From: an uncultured Lentisphaerota bacterium
GTDB lineage: Bacteria > Verrucomicrobiota > Kiritimatiellia > CAIQIC01
Direction: 5' to 3'
NCBI GenBank assembly: GCA_903889245.1
Contig: CAISWQ010000033.1
Span: forward strand, 1 to 64,000
DNA: 64,000 nt
Positions 8,423 to 18,240 of this stretch are shown piece after piece. The stretch's first letter is position 1. Each line of letters begins with the position of its first letter. The translations under genes were made by a program, and so were the position numbers. Under the pieces are notes generated by a model. The model saw nothing but the letters and a program-made list of their open reading frames with translations, searched no databases and had not been told where the DNA came from.

Positions 8423-8839
8423 TTAGTCGCCGATGATTTTCACGAGCACGCGCTTGCGGCGGAGCCCATCGAACTCGCCGTAGAAAATCTGTTCCCACGG
8501 CCCGAAGTCGAGGCGGCCTTGCGTCACCGCGCAGACGACCTCGCGGCCCATGATGGTGCGCTTGAGATGTGCATCGCCGTTATCCTCCGCGCCGTTGTGC
8601 GCGTACTGGCTATGCGGCTTCTCCGGCGCGAGCCGCTCCAGCCAGCGCTCGAAGTCGGCGTGCAAGCCGGACTCGTCGTCGTTGATGAACACGCTCGCGG
8701 TGATGTGCATCGCGTTGACAAGGCACAGGCCCTCGCGCACGCCGCTCTCGCGCAGGCACGTCTCGACCTGCGGCGTGATATTGAGGAAGCCGCGCCGCGC
8801 GGGCACCTCGAACCAGAGTTCCTTGCGGTAGCTTTTCAT
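8423..8839 (-). CDS. YjbQ/UPF0047 family protein
   Basis: [39 protein letters not shown]...[18 protein letters not shown]. Confidence 0.85.
8427..8462. repeat. 36-bp direct repeat (right copy), native yjbQ 3' end
   Basis: Identical to 6364-6399. Confidence 0.85.
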
Positions 8840-9034
8840 GGCCGGGAGACTAGCCGCCGGCCGCGCGCAGGTAAAGCGATGAAGAGAGCCGCCCGTCAGT
8901 GGTCATTTGTCAGTGGTGCGTTGGTCCCCGGCGCAGTCGTCCGCCAGCAGCGAAACTTCCGTGTGGGCGGGGTTTCCAACCCCGCGACCCCTGCACGAAC
9001 GCAACAGCAAGGCGGGCTGGAAGCCCCACCCGCA

Positions 9035-9135
9035 GCGGAAAATTTTCCAGGGATTGGAAAGTTGAACCGGTGGTTTTTCCAAGCCTTGGATGGCGCGCGG
9101 CGCGCCACAGGAAAAATTTTCCGAGGCTTGGAACA
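9035..9135. repeat. 101-bp direct repeat, left copy (composite palindrome element)
   Basis: gcggaaaattttccagggattggaaagttgaacc...ccgaggcttggaaca, identical to 19375-19475. Confidence 0.95.
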
Positions 9136-9722: not shown

Positions 9723-12611
9723 ATGAAGAAAGTTCTCCACGTTGGATGGGCCTTGTGGGCCTGTGCGGTGTTGGCGCGCGCGGCGCTGCCGGACTCGCTG
9801 GTGATCCAGTTGACCGAGACCTACACCACGGCGATGAAGGCCTTCGAGGCGGGCCGCTGGACGGAGGCCGCCGCCGGTTTGAGCAAGCTGGTGGCCAAGG
9901 TCACCGACCCGGCCGACCAGGCGAAGATCGGGCCGGTTTATTACACCGTGGGGGCGGCCCACTACAACGCGAAGCAGTACCCGCAGGCGGCCGCCGCGTT
10001 CCAGATTTTCCTGACCAAATTCCCGGATGATCCGCGCGCGCGGCAGGCGCGGCTGGCGCAGGCGCGCGCGACTTACCTCGCCAAGCAGTATGAAGCGGCC
10101 ATTCCGCTGTTCGCCGCCTATGAGGGCGTACCGGCCATGCGTTATCAGTCGCTGCTGGTGCAGGCCGAGTGTTTCAAGGCGCTCAAGAAGGACACGGAGC
10201 AGATGGCGGTGCTGGAGCGGCTGATGCTGCCGGACATCGGCGCCGCCCAGCAGGCCGAGGGCGCGCTGACGTTGATCGAACTCTATTTCCACAAGGACCA
10301 GACCGACAAGGCGCTGGAACTGCTCAACAAGCTGCACGCGCGCATCGCGGTGGTGGATAACGTGGTGGCGCTCAACCTGCTGACCGTGAAGCTCGGCGAC
10401 GAGCTGGCGGAGAAGAAAGCCTATGAGCAGGCGCTGCGCGCCTACCGCGAAGTGCGGACGCGCGAACAGGTGCTCGATTTCCAGACCAACCGCATCGCCG
10501 CCCTGGAGCAGCGCATCCAGGCCAATCAGCGTTATCTGCGCAGCGGGCGGCTCGATGCGGTGCAGGTGGCCAGCGCGAACCAGGAGCTGGAGGCGGCGGT
10601 GGAACACGCACGGAAACTGCTCGCGGTGCAGGAAAAAATGCCGGATCACCTGCCGGGCGTGGTGCTGCGGATGGGGCGCGTCTATTATGACTGGGGCCGG
10701 AAGTGGGAGGCGATCAGCGCCTTTGATTCGCTCCTAGCCGAGCATCCGAAAACGAAGGAGTGCGAGCCGGCGCTCTACGCGATGCTGGTCTGCTACGCCG
10801 ACCTCAACCGCGTCGCCCGCACGCAGGCCATGTGCGAGCGCTACCTCAAAGAATTTCCCAAGGGGCCGAATGCGGCCGGCGTGGGCTATTTGCTTGGCGC
10901 GGTTTCGTTGGAGGCGGGCGAGCCCAAACGTGCGGCGACGTTCTTCGGCCGCATCCTCGACGAGCAGCCGCAGAGCCCGCTGCGCGAGCAGTTGATTCTC
11001 GGGCTGGGCAATTCCTACGCGATGATGGGCCAGCACGTGGAGTCGCGCCGGGAATACCGGCGCTACCTGCGCGATTTCCCCAAGGGTCAGTTCCTCGAGG
11101 ACGCGCTCTATCGCGAGGCGCTGGCGACCGTCTTCCTGGGCGAGTATGAGGCCGCGCTGAAGTCGCTCAACGCCTACGTCCAGAAATATCCGCAGGGCGC
11201 CTACGCGGCCGATGCGGGCTACCGCCTTATGGTGTGCAAGTACGCCGGCTCGCTCTATGGCGAGGTGGTGGCCGATGCCCAACAGTGGCACAAGAAGTTT
11301 CCGAATCACCAGATTGCGGGTGAGATTTTTGCCGTCACCGCCGACGCCCATGCCGCGGAAAACAAACACGCCGAGGCGGCCGCGGCCTATCAGCAGGCGT
11401 TCAAGAGGGCCTCCACCGATGAGGTGCTGAACTACGCCCTGTTCGAGGCCGGCAAGCAACTGCAGAAGCTCGGCGACTGGCCGGCGGTCGCGAAGATGTT
11501 CGAGGATTTCGTGCGCGATAATCCGAACCATGCCTCGGTGGTGGCGGCGATGTACTGGATCAGCCGCGCGAAGCAGCGCGAGGGCAAGCCGGAGGAGGCC
11601 AAGGCGCTGATCATCACGCAGCTCAAGCGCGACCTGAACGAGCCGAAGCGCGAGGCGGTCGAGCAACTGCTCCAGCAGCTCGCGCAGCTCTGCGCGAAGC
11701 GGCCGCGTCCGCCAGCGCTGCCGGCCGCGGACACGAACGCCGTGGCCGCCGCTGCCGCCACGAATGCGCCGGCCGCCGCCGCCACCAACGCGGTCGCCGT
11801 CGCGCCGCCGCTCCCGCCGCCCTACGATCCCTTCCCGGAGCTGAAGCAGCAGTTGGAACCGCTGGCGGACCTGGCGAACGCGACCGGCCGGGCGCGCCTG
11901 CTCTACGCCGAGGCCGAACTGTGCAAACTGCGCCGGCAGAACGCCGACGTGCAAGACATCTATGACCGGCTGGCGAAGGACTTCACGCCGGAGCAGTTAA
12001 GCCCGGTGTTGCTCGCGCTCGTCGGCGATCACCTTCTGGAGAAGGGTGACCGCGTCAAGGCGGCGAAGTTCTTTGAGGACCTGCGCGAGGATTATCCGAA
12101 GAGCAACTACCTGGACTTCGCCTTCAACGGCCTCGGCGAAATCGCGCTGGCGGGCGGCCAGGCGCGCAAGGCGCTGGAGCTGTTCACCACGGCCGCCGAC
12201 GACCTCGCCGCGCTGAAGATCAAGGACGCGACGCTGGGCAAGGCGCGTGCGCTGCTGGAATTGGGGAAATATCCAGAGGCCAAGAAACTGTTCGCGCAGG
12301 TCGCCAGCACGCGCGAGTGGCGCGGCGAGTCCACGGCCGCGGCGGTCTTCTATCTCGGCGAGCTGGAGGCGAAGCAGGGGCGCTATCCCGAGGCGATCGC
12401 GCACTATCAGCGCGTGTTCGTGGCCTACCAGAAATTCCTGCCGTGGGCCGCGCGCGCCTATGTGCGCGGCGCGGACTGCTTCGACAAGCTCGGCAAGCGC
12501 GCCGAGGCCATCGGGCATCTGCGCGAGATGCTGCGCAACGCGAAGCTGAAGGATTTCCCCGAGACGGAACAGGCGCGCAAGCTGTTGGACACGTGGGGGG
12601 CCGCTTCGTGA
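9723..12611 (+). CDS. TPR-repeat protein with signal peptide
   Basis: Repeated TPR-like helices (YYTVGAAHYNAKQYPQAAAAFQIFL); disordered Ala/Pro linker about aa 655-700. Confidence 0.85.
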   Translation: MKKVLHVGWALWACAVLARAALPDSLVIQLTETYTTAMKAFEAGRWTEAAAGLSKLVAKVTDPADQAKIGPVYYTVGAAHYNAKQYPQAAAAFQIFLTKFPDDPRARQARLAQARATYLAKQYEAAIPLFAAYEGVPAMRYQSLLVQAECFKALKKDTEQMAVLERLMLPDIGAAQQAEGALTLIELYFHKDQTDKALELLNKLHARIAVVDNVVALNLLTVKLGDELAEKKAYEQALRAYREVRTREQVLDFQTNRIAALEQRIQANQRYLRSGRLDAVQVASANQELEAAVEHARKLLAVQEKMPDHLPGVVLRMGRVYYDWGRKWEAISAFDSLLAEHPKTKECEPALYAMLVCYADLNRVARTQAMCERYLKEFPKGPNAAGVGYLLGAVSLEAGEPKRAATFFGRILDEQPQSPLREQLILGLGNSYAMMGQHVESRREYRRYLRDFPKGQFLEDALYREALATVFLGEYEAALKSLNAYVQKYPQGAYAADAGYRLMVCKYAGSLYGEVVADAQQWHKKFPNHQIAGEIFAVTADAHAAENKHAEAAAAYQQAFKRASTDEVLNYALFEAGKQLQKLGDWPAVAKMFEDFVRDNPNHASVVAAMYWISRAKQREGKPEEAKALIITQLKRDLNEPKREAVEQLLQQLAQLCAKRPRPPALPAADTNAVAAAAATNAPAAAATNAVAVAPPLPPPYDPFPELKQQLEPLADLANATGRARLLYAEAELCKLRRQNADVQDIYDRLAKDFTPEQLSPVLLALVGDHLLEKGDRVKAAKFFEDLREDYPKSNYLDFAFNGLGEIALAGGQARKALELFTTAADDLAALKIKDATLGKARALLELGKYPEAKKLFAQVASTREWRGESTAAAVFYLGELEAKQGRYPEAIAHYQRVFVAYQKFLPWAARAYVRGADCFDKLGKRAEAIGHLREMLRNAKLKDFPETEQARKLLDTWGAAS

Positions 12612-13465
12612 GAAGCCTCGCCCTCCTGCTCACGCTCACGCTGGCGGCGCACGCGCAAAGCCTCGTCTTCAAGGATGGCAAGGTGCTCGCTGTCGGGAAG
12701 GATCTGCGGCGGCAAGGCGATATGCTCTTCACGCTGGTCGAGCTTTCCGGCGCCGCGCCGGGCCAGCCCGCGAGGACAGGCGAGGTCGGCTACGCGGTGG
12801 CGCAGATCGCGCGCCTGGAACTGCCGCCGCCCGCCCTGCTGAAAACGGCGCCCGAGCTGCTGGCGCAGGGCAAGGCCGCCGAAGCGCTCGCGCAACTGGA
12901 CCCCGCGCTGGCCAACCAGGTGACGTTCCGCGACCTGCCCGGCAGTTGGTGGGCGGAGACGGCGTTGCTCAAGCTGCGGGCGTTGAACCAACTTGGCCGC
13001 GAGGCTGAGGTCGAGCCGCTCGCCCAGCAGATCAGCACCTGCGCCGTCCATCCTGACCAGCCGCGCGCGGCGCAAGCCCAGGTGGCGCTGGCGCTGCTGC
13101 GCAAGGGCCAGACCGCCCGGGCGCTGCCGATTGCCGTCATTGTACTCAAGGAATCCAAGGAACCGGCGACGCGCGCGGTCGCCAGCGTGGTCAAGGGCGG
13201 CTGCCTCATGGAGAAGAAGGATTGGGAGGGCGCGCTGCTCGCCTACCTGAAGGTCCCGGTCTTCTTCCCTCAAGACAAGCTGCTGCTCGCGCAGGCCCTG
13301 CTGGGCGCGGGCCGTGCGCAGTTCGAGCTGTCCGACCTTGAGGCGGCCAAGGGCACGCTCAACGAATTGAAGAAAGTCTGCGCCGGCTCGCCCGAGGCGG
13401 AGCAGGTGGAAGCGGAATTGCAAAAAATCCAGCGCCGCGAGAAGGCGCTGGCGGAACCGAAATGA
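12608..13465 (+). CDS. TPR-like secreted protein, GTG start
   Basis: VRSLALLLTLTLAAHAQSLVFKDGK; overlaps the preceding stop (translational coupling). Confidence 0.75.
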   Translation: MRSLALLLTLTLAAHAQSLVFKDGKVLAVGKDLRRQGDMLFTLVELSGAAPGQPARTGEVGYAVAQIARLELPPPALLKTAPELLAQGKAAEALAQLDPALANQVTFRDLPGSWWAETALLKLRALNQLGREAEVEPLAQQISTCAVHPDQPRAAQAQVALALLRKGQTARALPIAVIVLKESKEPATRAVASVVKGGCLMEKKDWEGALLAYLKVPVFFPQDKLLLAQALLGAGRAQFELSDLEAAKGTLNELKKVCAGSPEAEQVEAELQKIQRREKALAEPK

Positions 13466-13472
13466 GGACACC

Positions 13473-14285
13473 ATGAAAATCAAAACCATGCTGCTGATCG
13501 GCCTCGCGGCCGGGGCGCTGTTGTGTACCGGGGTACAGGCGGCCGCCGAGAAACCCGCCGGCGAAAAGGCGGCGGTTTCCAAATCGCTGTGGGAACAGAT
13601 CAAGGAGGGCGGCTGGGTCATGGTCCCGATTGGCATACTCTCGATCCTGACCCTCTACCTGATCGGCGATGGCGTCGTGCGCACGGGCCGCAAGCGCGTG
13701 CTGCCGGAGCAGCACCTTGAGGCTGTGAAAGCCCATTTCAAGCAGGGCGACTATGTGGCGGCCTACAACTACTGCAAGGCGAACCCGTCGCCGTTCACCA
13801 ATGTCTGCCGCGTCGCCGTCAGTCTGCTGGGCGATGGCAAGGCGGCGGTGGAGGAAGGGCAGCTCGCGGAGCTTTCCAAGGAGAACGCGGCGATGCAGAC
13901 CTACATCTCCTATCTCTCGGTGATCGGCGTCTGCGCGCCGATGATCGGGCTGCTCGGCACGGTCACCGGCATGATCAAGGCCTTCCAGACGCTGGGCAGC
14001 GCCGGCATCGGCGATCCTTCCAGCCTCTCGGCGGCCATTGGCGAGGTGCTCGTGGCCACGGCCAGCGGCCTGTTCATCGCGATTCCCGCCTTTGGCGCGT
14101 TCTATTTCCTGCGCAACCGCGCGGGCAAGGCGCTGCACGACATTCAGGACGTGATGGCGTTGTTCTTCCGCAAGATTCCCTACGAGGATTTTGCCGGCGT
14201 CCATATTGGCGACGAGGAACTGATCGCCGCGCGGCCGAACTGGGTGGCGGAAGAGACGGCGGTCGCACCCGAGGCGGCCACATGA
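13473..14285 (+). CDS. ExbB/TolQ/MotA-type proton channel
   Basis: ISYLSVIGVCAPMIGLLGTVTGMIKAFQ and ALVATASGLFIAIPAF-like ExbB motifs. Confidence 0.92.
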   Translation: MKIKTMLLIGLAAGALLCTGVQAAAEKPAGEKAAVSKSLWEQIKEGGWVMVPIGILSILTLYLIGDGVVRTGRKRVLPEQHLEAVKAHFKQGDYVAAYNYCKANPSPFTNVCRVAVSLLGDGKAAVEEGQLAELSKENAAMQTYISYLSVIGVCAPMIGLLGTVTGMIKAFQTLGSAGIGDPSSLSAAIGEVLVATASGLFIAIPAFGAFYFLRNRAGKALHDIQDVMALFFRKIPYEDFAGVHIGDEELIAARPNWVAEETAVAPEAAT

Positions 14286-14316: not shown

Positions 14317-14778
14317 ATGGCTGGCGGTGGTGGCGGTGGCGATAGCGGCGAACCTGAATTCCAGGTGGCACCGATGATTGATGTGCTGCTCGTGCTGCTC
14401 ATCTTCTTCATGAGCATCACCACGGCGCAGGTGTTGAAGGTGGACAAGAGCATCCAGCTCCCGCTCGCCCCCAACGCCATCAAGAAGGACAACCAGCGCG
14501 CCGAGGCGATCATCAATGTGCGCTGGAACGAGGGCACGAAGAAGGCCACGTTCGTCGTGGATGACAAGCTCTACGCCGACACCGCCGAACTCGTGAAGGT
14601 GCTGGTCGTCGCCAAGAAAACCGGCGAGGCCAAGGTGACCCACGGGCCGAACCTCGGCTTCCGTTGCGTCATCCGCGGCGACCGCCTGGCGCAGGCCGGG
14701 GCGATCTCACGCGCGATGGCCGCCGCCGCCGAGGCCGGCATCAGCGATATCTCGTTCTCCGCCGCCAACCGGGATTGA
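14317..14778 (+). CDS. ExbD/TolR family protein (1)
   Basis: EFQVAPMIDVLLVLLIFFMSIT with conserved TM Asp. Confidence 0.9.
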   Translation: MAGGGGGGDSGEPEFQVAPMIDVLLVLLIFFMSITTAQVLKVDKSIQLPLAPNAIKKDNQRAEAIINVRWNEGTKKATFVVDDKLYADTAELVKVLVVAKKTGEAKVTHGPNLGFRCVIRGDRLAQAGAISRAMAAAAEAGISDISFSAANRD

Positions 14779-14781
14779 ACC

Positions 14782-15231
14782 ATGCGCCGCCTTGAACCCT
14801 TTCCCGCAGGCGAAGCCAACTTCGGCTTCCAGATCGCGCCGATGATTGATGTCGTCTTCGTCATCATGCTCTTCTTCATGGTCATGGCCGGTGCCGTGAA
14901 GGTCGAGCGCGAACTGAACACCAAGTTGCCCGGGACCGCCGAGACCAGCGGGCCGATGGACTTCGTGGATGAGATCATCATCAACATCTCCATCGCCGGC
15001 GAGGTGACGCTCAACGATGAGCCGATGGACACGCCCGCGAGCAAGGACCTGCCCCAACTCCGCAACACGCTGCTGCGCCTCAAGCAGGGCAGCGATGCCG
15101 CCAAGACACCCGTCATGGTCACGATTGTCAGCGAGGGCGAGGCGCGCTATCACCGCACGGTGGATGTGCTCGACGCGCTCGCCGTCGCCCAGATCGAGAA
15201 CGTCACCTTCACCGTCAGCGAGGAAGAATGA
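14782..15231 (+). CDS. ExbD/TolR family protein (2)
   Basis: NFGFQIAPMIDVVFVIMLFFMVMAG. Confidence 0.9.
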   Translation: MRRLEPFPAGEANFGFQIAPMIDVVFVIMLFFMVMAGAVKVERELNTKLPGTAETSGPMDFVDEIIINISIAGEVTLNDEPMDTPASKDLPQLRNTLLRLKQGSDAAKTPVMVTIVSEGEARYHRTVDVLDALAVAQIENVTFTVSEEE

Positions 15232-16622
15232 GCAGCTCCGGTGACTTGAACGTGGCGGAGTGGCTGGCCGGTCTCGGCCTGGGCCAGTATGCGGAACTGT
15301 TCGCCGCGCACAACATCACCGGCGACCTGCTGGCGGGACTCACCGATGCCGACCTGAAAACGCTGGGCATCGCCTCGCTCGGCCACCGCAAGCGGCTGTT
15401 GCAGAAAATCCAGAAGCGGCCGGCGGGCGTCGTGGCGCCACCGGCGACCACGACTCCGAAAAAACCAGCGCCCGCCGCGCCACCTGCGCCGCCCGTTGCA
15501 GCGCAGAAGCCCGCGCCCACGGCACGCGCAAAAACTGCGCCGGCCGGTGTTGTGGCAGCGGCCGCTGATGCCGTGGCACAGGCGCCGGTAACGGCGGTGT
15601 CCGCCACGCGCGTCAAGCAACCCAGCCGCGGGCGCATCGCCGCCTTCATCGGCGGCCATTTTCTCCTCGTCAGCATCTGCGTGCATCTGCTTTTTGGCGT
15701 CGGCGCCACGCTCTACGTCGTGCAGATCATCCAGGCCAAGCGCAAGGTCACCTTCCAGAACGGGCCGCCCACGCTCAATCCGAGCACACGCGTACTCGAA
15801 CACAAGGTGGCGATGGCGCAGAAGAAGAAAGCCGGCGGCGCGCCGCCGCAGGCCAGGCGCATCGCCTCGACCGGCCTCGCGAAAGTATCGCTGCCGGATA
15901 TGCCCAGCATTCCCAGCGCGACGACCGTGGTGCCCGGCATGATGGCGGGCATGGGCGGCGCGGGCTTCGGCACGGGCCTCGGCTTCGGCAGTGGTATGGG
16001 CAGCGGGATGGGCGGCGGCGGCGGTGGCGGTGGCATCGGCTTCTTTGGCCTGCGGATGGCCGCACGCAACATCGTGCTGGTCATAGATATTTCCGGCAGC
16101 ATGATCCAGGGCAAGAAGGACCGGACCGCCTACGACCGGCTCGAGAAGGAGGCCGTCACCGCCATTCAAGGACTCGATCTGAACTCGCGCCTGAACATCA
16201 TCGCCTTCTCGGGCTCGCCCTTTGTCTTCAGCGAGAAGTCGGTGACGGCCGGGCCTGGCGACAAGAACCGCGCCATCGAATGGCTCAAAAGCTACAGCCC
16301 CTGCCACTGCCTGCCCTCCGGTGTGACCAAGGGCAATGGCAAAATCTGGCAGTCGGGCAAGGGCAAGCGCCACTCGGGCACCAGCAGCGAGAAGGCGCTG
16401 GAGCGCGCGTTTGAACTCAAGCCGGACACGATCCTGTTCGTCTCCGATGGCGAGCCGACGGACGCCAAGCCGAACGAAATCCTGAAGCACGTGGAGAGCT
16501 GGCAGCGACAGCAGCAGAAGAAGGTCATCATCAACACCATCGCCTATCACGCCGATAGCGGCGAAGATTTCATGGAGAACCTGGCCAAGCAAAACGGCGG
16601 CCAGTTCAAGAACATCCGGTAA
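15228..16622 (+). CDS. SAM domain, TonB-like TM, Gly-rich stalk, von Willebrand A domain
   Basis: SAM: VAEWLAGLGLGQYAELFAAHNITGDLLAGLTDADLKTLGI; TM LLVSICVHLLFGVGATLYVV (SxxxH); MIDAS DISGSM and SDGEPTD. Confidence 0.85.
   Translation: MSSSGDLNVAEWLAGLGLGQYAELFAAHNITGDLLAGLTDADLKTLGIASLGHRKRLLQKIQKRPAGVVAPPATTTPKKPAPAAPPAPPVAAQKPAPTARAKTAPAGVVAAAADAVAQAPVTAVSATRVKQPSRGRIAAFIGGHFLLVSICVHLLFGVGATLYVVQIIQAKRKVTFQNGPPTLNPSTRVLEHKVAMAQKKKAGGAPPQARRIASTGLAKVSLPDMPSIPSATTVVPGMMAGMGGAGFGTGLGFGSGMGSGMGGGGGGGGIGFFGLRMAARNIVLVIDISGSMIQGKKDRTAYDRLEKEAVTAIQGLDLNSRLNIIAFSGSPFVFSEKSVTAGPGDKNRAIEWLKSYSPCHCLPSGVTKGNGKIWQSGKGKRHSGTSSEKALERAFELKPDTILFVSDGEPTDAKPNEILKHVESWQRQQQKKVIINTIAYHADSGEDFMENLAKQNGGQFKNIR
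15656..16062. repeat. near-identical intragenic duplicated segment, copy 1
   Basis: TM plus stalk region, about 95% identical by eye to 17075-17469. Confidence 0.9.
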
Positions 16623-16641
16623 CGGGCGGCCGCGCAGCACC

Positions 16642-18240
16642 ATGAGCACACCCTCTTCAGCCAACAACCGGTCCTTCGACATAGGTGCCTGGCTGGAAGC
16701 CCTCGGCCTGGACCAGTACGCCGCGGTCTTTGCGAAGCAGGACATCCGCCCGGAACAGCTCGCGGACCTGACCGATGCCGATTTGAAAGAGCTGGGTGTG
16801 GCCGCGCTCGGCCACCGCAAGCGGCTGTTGTTGGAGATAAAAAAACTGGTGGAGGCGGACGCGCTGACCAGCGCGCCGCCTGCGCCGGTCCCGGTCGCCG
16901 TTGCTCCACCGCCGCCCACCGCGCCGGCGCCAGCGAAGAAACACATCCGTACGCCGCCCGCCACCATCGAACCACCGGCAGCCGCCGCAGCCGAGACGCC
17001 GGCGCCCGCACAGCCCGCGCGCGTTCCCACCCGCTTCCGCCAGAACTGCGTGGTGGCCTTTATCGGCAGCCACTTCCTGCTCGTCAGCATCTGCGTGCAT
17101 CTGCTTTTTGGCGTCGGCGCCACGCTCTACGTCGTGCAGATCATCCAGGCCAAGCGCAAGGTCACATTCCAGAACGGGCCGCCCACGCTCAATCCGAGCA
17201 CACGCGTGCTCGAACACAAGGTGGCGATGGCGCAGAAGAAAAAAGCCGGCGGCGCGCCGCCACAGGCCAGGCGCATTGCCTCGACCGGCCTCGCGAAAGT
17301 TTCGCTGCCGGACATGCCGAGCATTCCCAGCGCGACAACCGTGGTGCCCGGCATGATGGCGGGCATGGGCGGCGCGGGCTTCGGCACGGGCCTCGGCTTC
17401 GGCAGCGGCATGGGCAGCGGCATGGGCGGCGGCGGCGGGGGCGGCGGGTTCGGCTTCTTTGGGCTGCGCGGCACCGGCGATGGCTTGATCGGCACCTTCT
17501 ATGACTTCAAGCGCGACGAGCACGGCAAGCCGACCGGACTCAAGGCTTGGGGCGGTGGCAAGGGGGACGGCGGCCGCAAGACCTACACCGACATCCTCAA
17601 GGACTTTGTGAACAGCAGCGCGTGGAAAGTACCGTCCAGCCACAAGCATTTCACCTCGAAGGCGCGGCTGACCTCCAAGGCTTTTTTCTTTCCGGCCATC
17701 CACGATGACGAGGCCGGCAAGGCCTTCCAGACGCCCGAGGCCGGACCGGGTATGTGGGTCGCTCACTACGCCGGCATGGTCACGCCGCCGGTCACCGGCC
17801 GCTACCGGTTCGTCGGCTGGGGCGATAACGTCATGATCGTGGGCCTCAACGGCAAGGTGGTGCTCGACGCCTCCGACATCGGCTACGTGGATCGCTCGCG
17901 CGCCCACAAAGGCGCCGTCAGCTTCCCCAAGAAAGGCAGCACACCCATGTTCGAGGGCGACTGGTTCGCGCTCTCCGCCAACATGGCGGTCAAGATAGAC
18001 ATCCTGCTCGGCGACGAAGGCGGCATCTTCTGCGCGGGCCTGCATATCCAGAAGGAAGGCGAGAGCTACAGCAGCGGCAAGGGCGGGGTGCCCACGCTGC
18101 CGCTCTGGCTCGCCGGCGCGCTGGGCCCGGAGGAGAAAAAACTCTACGGCACCTACCTCGGCGGGCAGGCGTTCGGCGGACCGGTCTTCCGCTCCAAACC
18201 CACCACCACCGGCTCACTCATGGATACGATCCGACGCTGA
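16642..18240 (+). CDS. SAM domain, TonB-like TM, Gly-rich stalk, PA14-like domain
   Basis: IGAWLEALGLDQYAAVFAKQDIRPEQLADLTDADLKELGV; same TM/stalk; VTGRYRFVGWGDNVMIVGLNGKVVLDAS. Confidence 0.82.
   Translation: MSTPSSANNRSFDIGAWLEALGLDQYAAVFAKQDIRPEQLADLTDADLKELGVAALGHRKRLLLEIKKLVEADALTSAPPAPVPVAVAPPPPTAPAPAKKHIRTPPATIEPPAAAAAETPAPAQPARVPTRFRQNCVVAFIGSHFLLVSICVHLLFGVGATLYVVQIIQAKRKVTFQNGPPTLNPSTRVLEHKVAMAQKKKAGGAPPQARRIASTGLAKVSLPDMPSIPSATTVVPGMMAGMGGAGFGTGLGFGSGMGSGMGGGGGGGGFGFFGLRGTGDGLIGTFYDFKRDEHGKPTGLKAWGGGKGDGGRKTYTDILKDFVNSSAWKVPSSHKHFTSKARLTSKAFFFPAIHDDEAGKAFQTPEAGPGMWVAHYAGMVTPPVTGRYRFVGWGDNVMIVGLNGKVVLDASDIGYVDRSRAHKGAVSFPKKGSTPMFEGDWFALSANMAVKIDILLGDEGGIFCAGLHIQKEGESYSSGKGGVPTLPLWLAGALGPEEKKLYGTYLGGQAFGGPVFRSKPTTTGSLMDTIRR
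17075..17469. repeat. near-identical intragenic duplicated segment, copy 2
   Basis: See copy 1. Confidence 0.9.

Follow-up and report, generated by a model that had tools for sequence, protein, structure and literature searches.

A motor operon with two transducer genes

The window, a stretch of 64,000 nucleotides of DNA from an uncultured Lentisphaerota bacterium, carries an operon in which the genes for two TPR proteins and for an ExbB–ExbD–ExbD motor are followed by three genes with SAM domains, here termed A, B and C (Table 1).

Table 1. Position, strand and supporting evidence of the operon genes, their domains and the flanking repeats (window coordinates).
Feature	Coordinates	Strand	Evidence
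115-bp direct repeat left of operon	9021..9135	+	sequence match to right copy
TPR protein (962 aa) that opens the motor operon	9723..12611	+	Pfam TPR_6 1e-31; NCBIfam YbgF/PorW-like TPR
Second TPR protein (start codon provisional)	12629..13465	+	TPR_16 6e-8; neighbour conserved
ExbB/TolQ-like proton-channel subunit	13473..14285	+	PF01618 4e-24
ExbD/TolR-like subunit 1	14317..14778	+	PF02472 1e-15
ExbD/TolR-like subunit 2	14782..15231	+	PF02472 1e-18
Gene A, SAM–linker–TM–stalk–VWA transducer	15228..16622	+	ORF, Pfam, AlphaFold, Foldseek
SAM domain of A, cytoplasmic head	15249..15416	+	PF00536 2e-18
Homogenised TM/stalk tract in A	15642..16052	+	changepoint fit; dS 0.23, dN 0.007
SxxxH (SICVH) in TM of A, putative TonB/TolA-type motor-binding motif	15672..15686	+	sequence
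RVLEHKV, conserved RKLE motif after TM in A	15789..15809	+	family alignment
VWA tip of A, MIDAS-type DxSxS (DISGS)	16056..16619	+	Pfam VWA_2 3e-6
Gene B, SAM–linker–TM–stalk–PA14 transducer	16642..18240	+	ORF, Pfam
SAM domain of B	16663..16848	+	PF00536 4e-16
Homogenised TM/stalk tract in B	17056..17466	+	repeat at offset 1414; changepoint fit
SxxxH motif in TM of B	17086..17100	+	sequence
PA14-type tip of B	17470..18237	+	Pfam PA14 2e-5, residues 364-411
Gene C, SAM–TM (no SxxxH)–DUF5077-like domain; lacks this stalk	18240..19322	+	Pfam; sequence
115-bp direct repeat right of operon, 97% identical to left copy	19361..19475	+	sequence match to left copy

Only three SAM domains occur in the genome, one each in A, B and C, and that of gene C, which closes the operon, may link its product to those of A and B. 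The AlphaFold model of A, built on an alignment of 25 sequences, has a helical SAM region (residues 9–62), then a disordered linker and a confident transmembrane (TM) helix (134–175), a low-confidence helix that covers the RKLE region (185–202), a low-confidence stalk without regular structure (208–267), and the VWA domain at the C-terminus. The VWA fold of the tip was confirmed by Foldseek, and its residues D287, S289 and S291 are invariant in the family alignment. Among the VWA tips, the MIDAS motif DxSxS occurs in 4/47 of the set from families f32 and f20, versus 46/52 elsewhere. For the tip of B, the domain search gave a PA14-type match and no VWA match, and the PA14 fold is assigned by Pfam because a single-sequence structure prediction reached a pLDDT of 36 only; homologous tips are found on SxxxH stalks in relatives.

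SxxxH is kept in 124/132 members of the stalk family; of the published SHLS motif, whose spacing is that in TonB, L and the second S are not kept in the family alignment. SxxxH corresponds to the Ser16/His20 arrangement of TonB as named in the reference list of PMC10907165. The segment KVTFQNGPP behind the TM helix resembles a motor box, with the F kept in 63/64 sequences and no strand at this position in the AlphaFold model. Judged from these motifs, the part that A and B have in common is predicted to couple a TonB/TolA-like transducer to its motor, and we infer its coupling to ExbBD from SxxxH, from the conserved operon and from a 2025 paper on vWA force transducers (PMC12204202).

The operon context recurs in relatives, where an equivalent of the 962-residue TPR protein is also encoded upstream. 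When only loci with more than 3.5 kb of upstream sequence are counted, an ExbB gene and two ExbD genes lie upstream at 40/46 loci outside family f32 and at 4/26 in the f32 group. In genome G103, two ExbD genes immediately precede two PA14 transducers, TPR genes lie upstream at a greater distance, and ExbB-family genes (PF01618) are present at the PA14 transducer sites; therefore, the PA14 type also occurs in motor operons. At two loci of one genome (L219:4314-6342 and L220:2538-4527), the ExbD proteins are alike in the stretches read, and the PA14 transducers are clearly different. In family f32 (loci such as L097–L127), a genome encodes many stalk proteins, and most of them have no recognised motor genes alongside.

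The 115-bp repeats that flank the operon are the sole full-length pair, and about 40 shorter and weaker partial copies are dispersed across the genome. The stalk is absent from three genomes of the same genus. One of them (L216) has synteny over the two genes on the left side of the operon, and in the two others the gene at 8426-8839 is kept (L217, L218); in the matching stretches of all three, none of the operon genes was found, nor did the right flank turn up next to the left one. The flanking repeats together with the absence from these same-genus stretches suggest that the operon may be an accessory operon.

The shared TM and stalk tract

The first-pass annotation had described A and B as two paralogues that share a block ending at GFFGLR, and a two-changepoint fit agrees with its position and limits. 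The tract comprises 137 codons (codons 139–275 of A), the nucleotide identity of A and B being 94.6% within it and 36.7% outside, and its limits are sharp, with AFIG... at the start and GFFGL at the end. It contains the TM helix with SICVH, then KVTFQNGPP, RVLEHKV and a Gly-rich stretch that extends up to GFFGL. The divergence claimed for the SAM domains upstream and the effectors downstream was likewise recovered, with 33/57 matching residues in the SAM domain, 24/67 in the linker and unrelated C-termini. The near identity claimed for the block holds for the amino acids, of which 135/137 match, but not for the silent sites, as there are 21 synonymous differences. A codon-level comparison along both genes nevertheless came out in favour of the annotation, with a dS (NG86) of 0.23 in the stalk versus 0.79 in the SAM domain and 1.0 in the linker.

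Local codon usage predicts that about 64 codons should differ if the two copies were independent, versus the 21 observed. Codon mismatch at identical residues amounts to 21/128 in the stalk versus 22/56 in SAM domain plus linker (Fisher p=0.0012), and the same contrast with the SAM domain alone gives p=0.045; at fourfold sites only, the values are p=0.014 against SAM plus linker and p=0.33 against SAM alone. By itself, the window thus gives a moderate silent-site signal. An orthologue of A and B close enough to date or polarise the event was not found. A contig scan with gene A as query gave no relative, and one with a closer alignment gave 35 loci, mostly titled as uncultured Lentisphaerae, Kiritimatiellae or Verrucomicrobia.

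Stalks, tips and heads in other genomes

As NG86 dS is inflated in poorly aligned tips, the controls were based on the synonymous mismatch at identical residues, expressed as the ratio of stalk to rest, which is 0.42 for the window pair. Orthologues are not uniformly diverged along their length (median ratio 0.79, range 0.45–1.32, n=64), and no stalk-only identity was seen among them; the lowest of these ratios lies near that of the window, which counts against our reading. Paralogues that are not adjacent in the same genome have median ratios of 0.98 (VWA, n=48) and 0.92 (PA14, n=34), and since such copies do not look alike at silent sites, the stalk is not merely conserved.

Tandem pairs behave differently. 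A ratio below 0.6 was found in 10/17 tandem pairs of like type versus 4/82 non-adjacent pairs (p=9e-7), and the latter count becomes 2/80 once two pairs are removed that are really tandem genes appearing in two loci. Four tandem pairs are the clearest: in G171, the stalk dS is 0.02 and the tips are saturated; stalk versus tip values are 0.19 versus 2.1 in G057, 0.29 versus 2.1 in G168 and 0.35 versus 2.1 in G103. Further PA14/PA14 tandem pairs that speak for homogenisation are those in G170, G142, G132, G177 and G150. Homogenisation is absent in 7/17 tandem pairs, and L094 was not relied on because its ratio depends on filtering (0.94 with, 0.52 without). The 3' end of the mapped tracts coincides with the stalk/tip junction in 5/5 cases, and three tracts start at or inside the TM helix, whereas the 5' end of the two others is within the 5' leader (L092, L134). 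Low silent divergence that is bounded by diverged flanks on both sides is seen in the window, L061 and L096. Adjacent VWA/PA14 pairs in f32 show no homogenisation, and therefore the window has the only exchange seen between unlike tips. The recurrence pattern fits a proximity-dependent gene conversion that would act on a modular platform.

The stalk is not tied to a single effector type: tips in relatives of the same class are mostly VWA, PA14 in others, and a squalene-cyclase-like alpha/alpha-toroid in six proteins. PA14 tips occur in families f20 and f32, and the window adds one in f1. A stalk tree, which is based on few columns, has at least three PA14 changes and at least two toroid changes on well-supported branches. 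The heads vary as well, with a short N-terminus in most members, SAM in the window and a protein kinase in L075. The L075 protein (L075:5046-7508) is a Ser/Thr kinase (Pkinase 1e-38) fused to a stalk and a VWA tip, its TM motif being AxxxH instead of SxxxH, and this fusion could possibly link signalling to the motor.

Probable gene conversion, its alternatives and known systems

We consider it likely that A and B are TonB/TolA-like transducers of one motor, and that the stalk is copied between these neighbours by gene conversion. The ExbB–ExbD–ExbD motor just upstream would serve both proteins by way of a common part, which would consist of the TM helix with SxxxH, the motor-box-like segment, the RKLE motif and the Gly-rich stalk; separate modules would be the cytoplasmic SAM heads and, at the outer end, the VWA tip of A and the PA14 tip of B. 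Gene conversion between the neighbouring genes would keep the stalks near identical, and the unlikeness of the tips would confine it to the stalk; it is probably favoured by the need of both proteins to fit one motor, and an older exchange of heads and tips would lie beneath it. On this reading, recombination would have copied the tract, the motor would drive both proteins through SxxxH and selection for motor fit would keep the copies; the tips may attach to targets in the envelope or exert a pull on them, and the SAM domains may bring A, B and C together. The interpretation as gene conversion and module shuffling that the first-pass annotation had offered is supported, with one qualification: conversion between tandem neighbours is indicated in several lineages, but the word 'recent' has to be toned down for the window genome, because the stalk dS means that the last exchange there was not fresh. 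The module shuffling appears as a longer-term exchange, according to the stalk tree and the L075 kinase head.

That the tract goes back to a one-off cassette capture, in which A's stalk copy was fused to PA14 to make B and the stalks later simply diverged without repeated conversion, is unlikely to us. Such a capture would agree with the long-term exchange of tips and heads around the stalk and with the situation in L092 and L134, where the shared tract takes in the 5' leader in a duplication-like manner, and partial duplication is therefore possible there. However, the SAM heads of A and B predate the stalk match (dS 0.79 versus 0.23), and PA14-tipped stalk proteins elsewhere form separate old groups in the stalk tree. 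Moreover, in L061 and L096 there is homology in both flanks, with much greater divergence there than in the stalk, and therefore copying into existing genes is needed. Purifying selection or codon constraint alone, without any exchange, would leave non-adjacent stalks with reduced silent divergence too, but in both the VWA and the PA14 set the silent divergence of these stalks roughly equals that of the remaining gene, and the 21 differing codons of the window pair stand against the number expected for independent copies. Although the stalk is conserved in orthologues, with a silent divergence that is mildly reduced by the median, we hold this explanation to be very improbable. The genome is a draft of 125 contigs, which might raise the suspicion of a collapsed or chimeric repeat; yet 21 silent and two amino-acid positions distinguish the tracts of A and B, both tracts have different intact flanks and open frames, and the pattern is also present in G103, a single contig of 3.9 Mb, so that an assembly artefact is hardly conceivable.

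TonB and TolA are the textbook carriers of inner-membrane energy to the outside, and either protein has a tip of its own. Should a single stalk serve many different tips and heads, it would suffice as a query for energised functions of the envelope other than uptake and outer-membrane stability. Recurrent homogenisation that is limited to a module would flag the protein part that must fit the motor, and the tandem genes would amount to a natural experiment on how conversion maintains a uniform common part next to diverging working ends. Going further, there may be a general proton-driven platform with interchangeable tips (VWA, PA14, toroid) and SAM or kinase heads on one TonB-like motor-coupling stalk, which gene conversion would hold uniform among neighbours. 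One motor would then drive several unlike effectors in the envelope, and A, B and C would be assembled into a single complex by their SAM domains, but this extension is tentative, and we doubt it slightly more than we believe it.

The closest known proteins are the vWA force transducers, which were published in 2025 in Mol Biol Evol with their function not known, and which are VWA-tipped and have the same plan and the same operon (PMC12204202). Likenesses are the TM helix with SHLS-type Ser/His, the VWA tip in the case of A, a domain II of about 100 residues and the TPR, tolQ-like and two tolR-like genes that come before; for their motor box, A and B have the segment KVTFQNGPP that resembles it; A differs in its extra SAM head, and B in carrying a PA14 tip (PMC12204202). 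B is thus a variant of these transducers that lies outside their definition by the VWA tip. The main text of PMC12204202 makes no mention of PA14, squalene (toroid), the SAM domain or gene conversion, and a search of one literature library for PA14 or gene conversion with ExbB/ExbD and TonB gave no relevant paper. On the basis of the predicted domains, what is new here is one stalk with three tip types and varied heads, and PA14 tips in other motor operons.

With TonB and TolA, A and B share an inner-membrane TM helix with SxxxH near an ExbB/ExbD motor, a D-box-like segment and an extended periplasmic linker. Unlike theirs, the linker of A and B is Gly-rich and not Pro-rich or helical, and a cytoplasmic SAM head is added; no model of a TonB or TolA C-terminal domain in Pfam or NCBIfam matched A or B. 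The homogenisation resembles known gene conversion of tandem paralogues in the local silent-site similarity of neighbours, which is limited to a tract with diverged flanks, but in contrast to the general case, the tract here corresponds to one functional module, the putative motor-coupling stalk, and it recurs in separate lineages.
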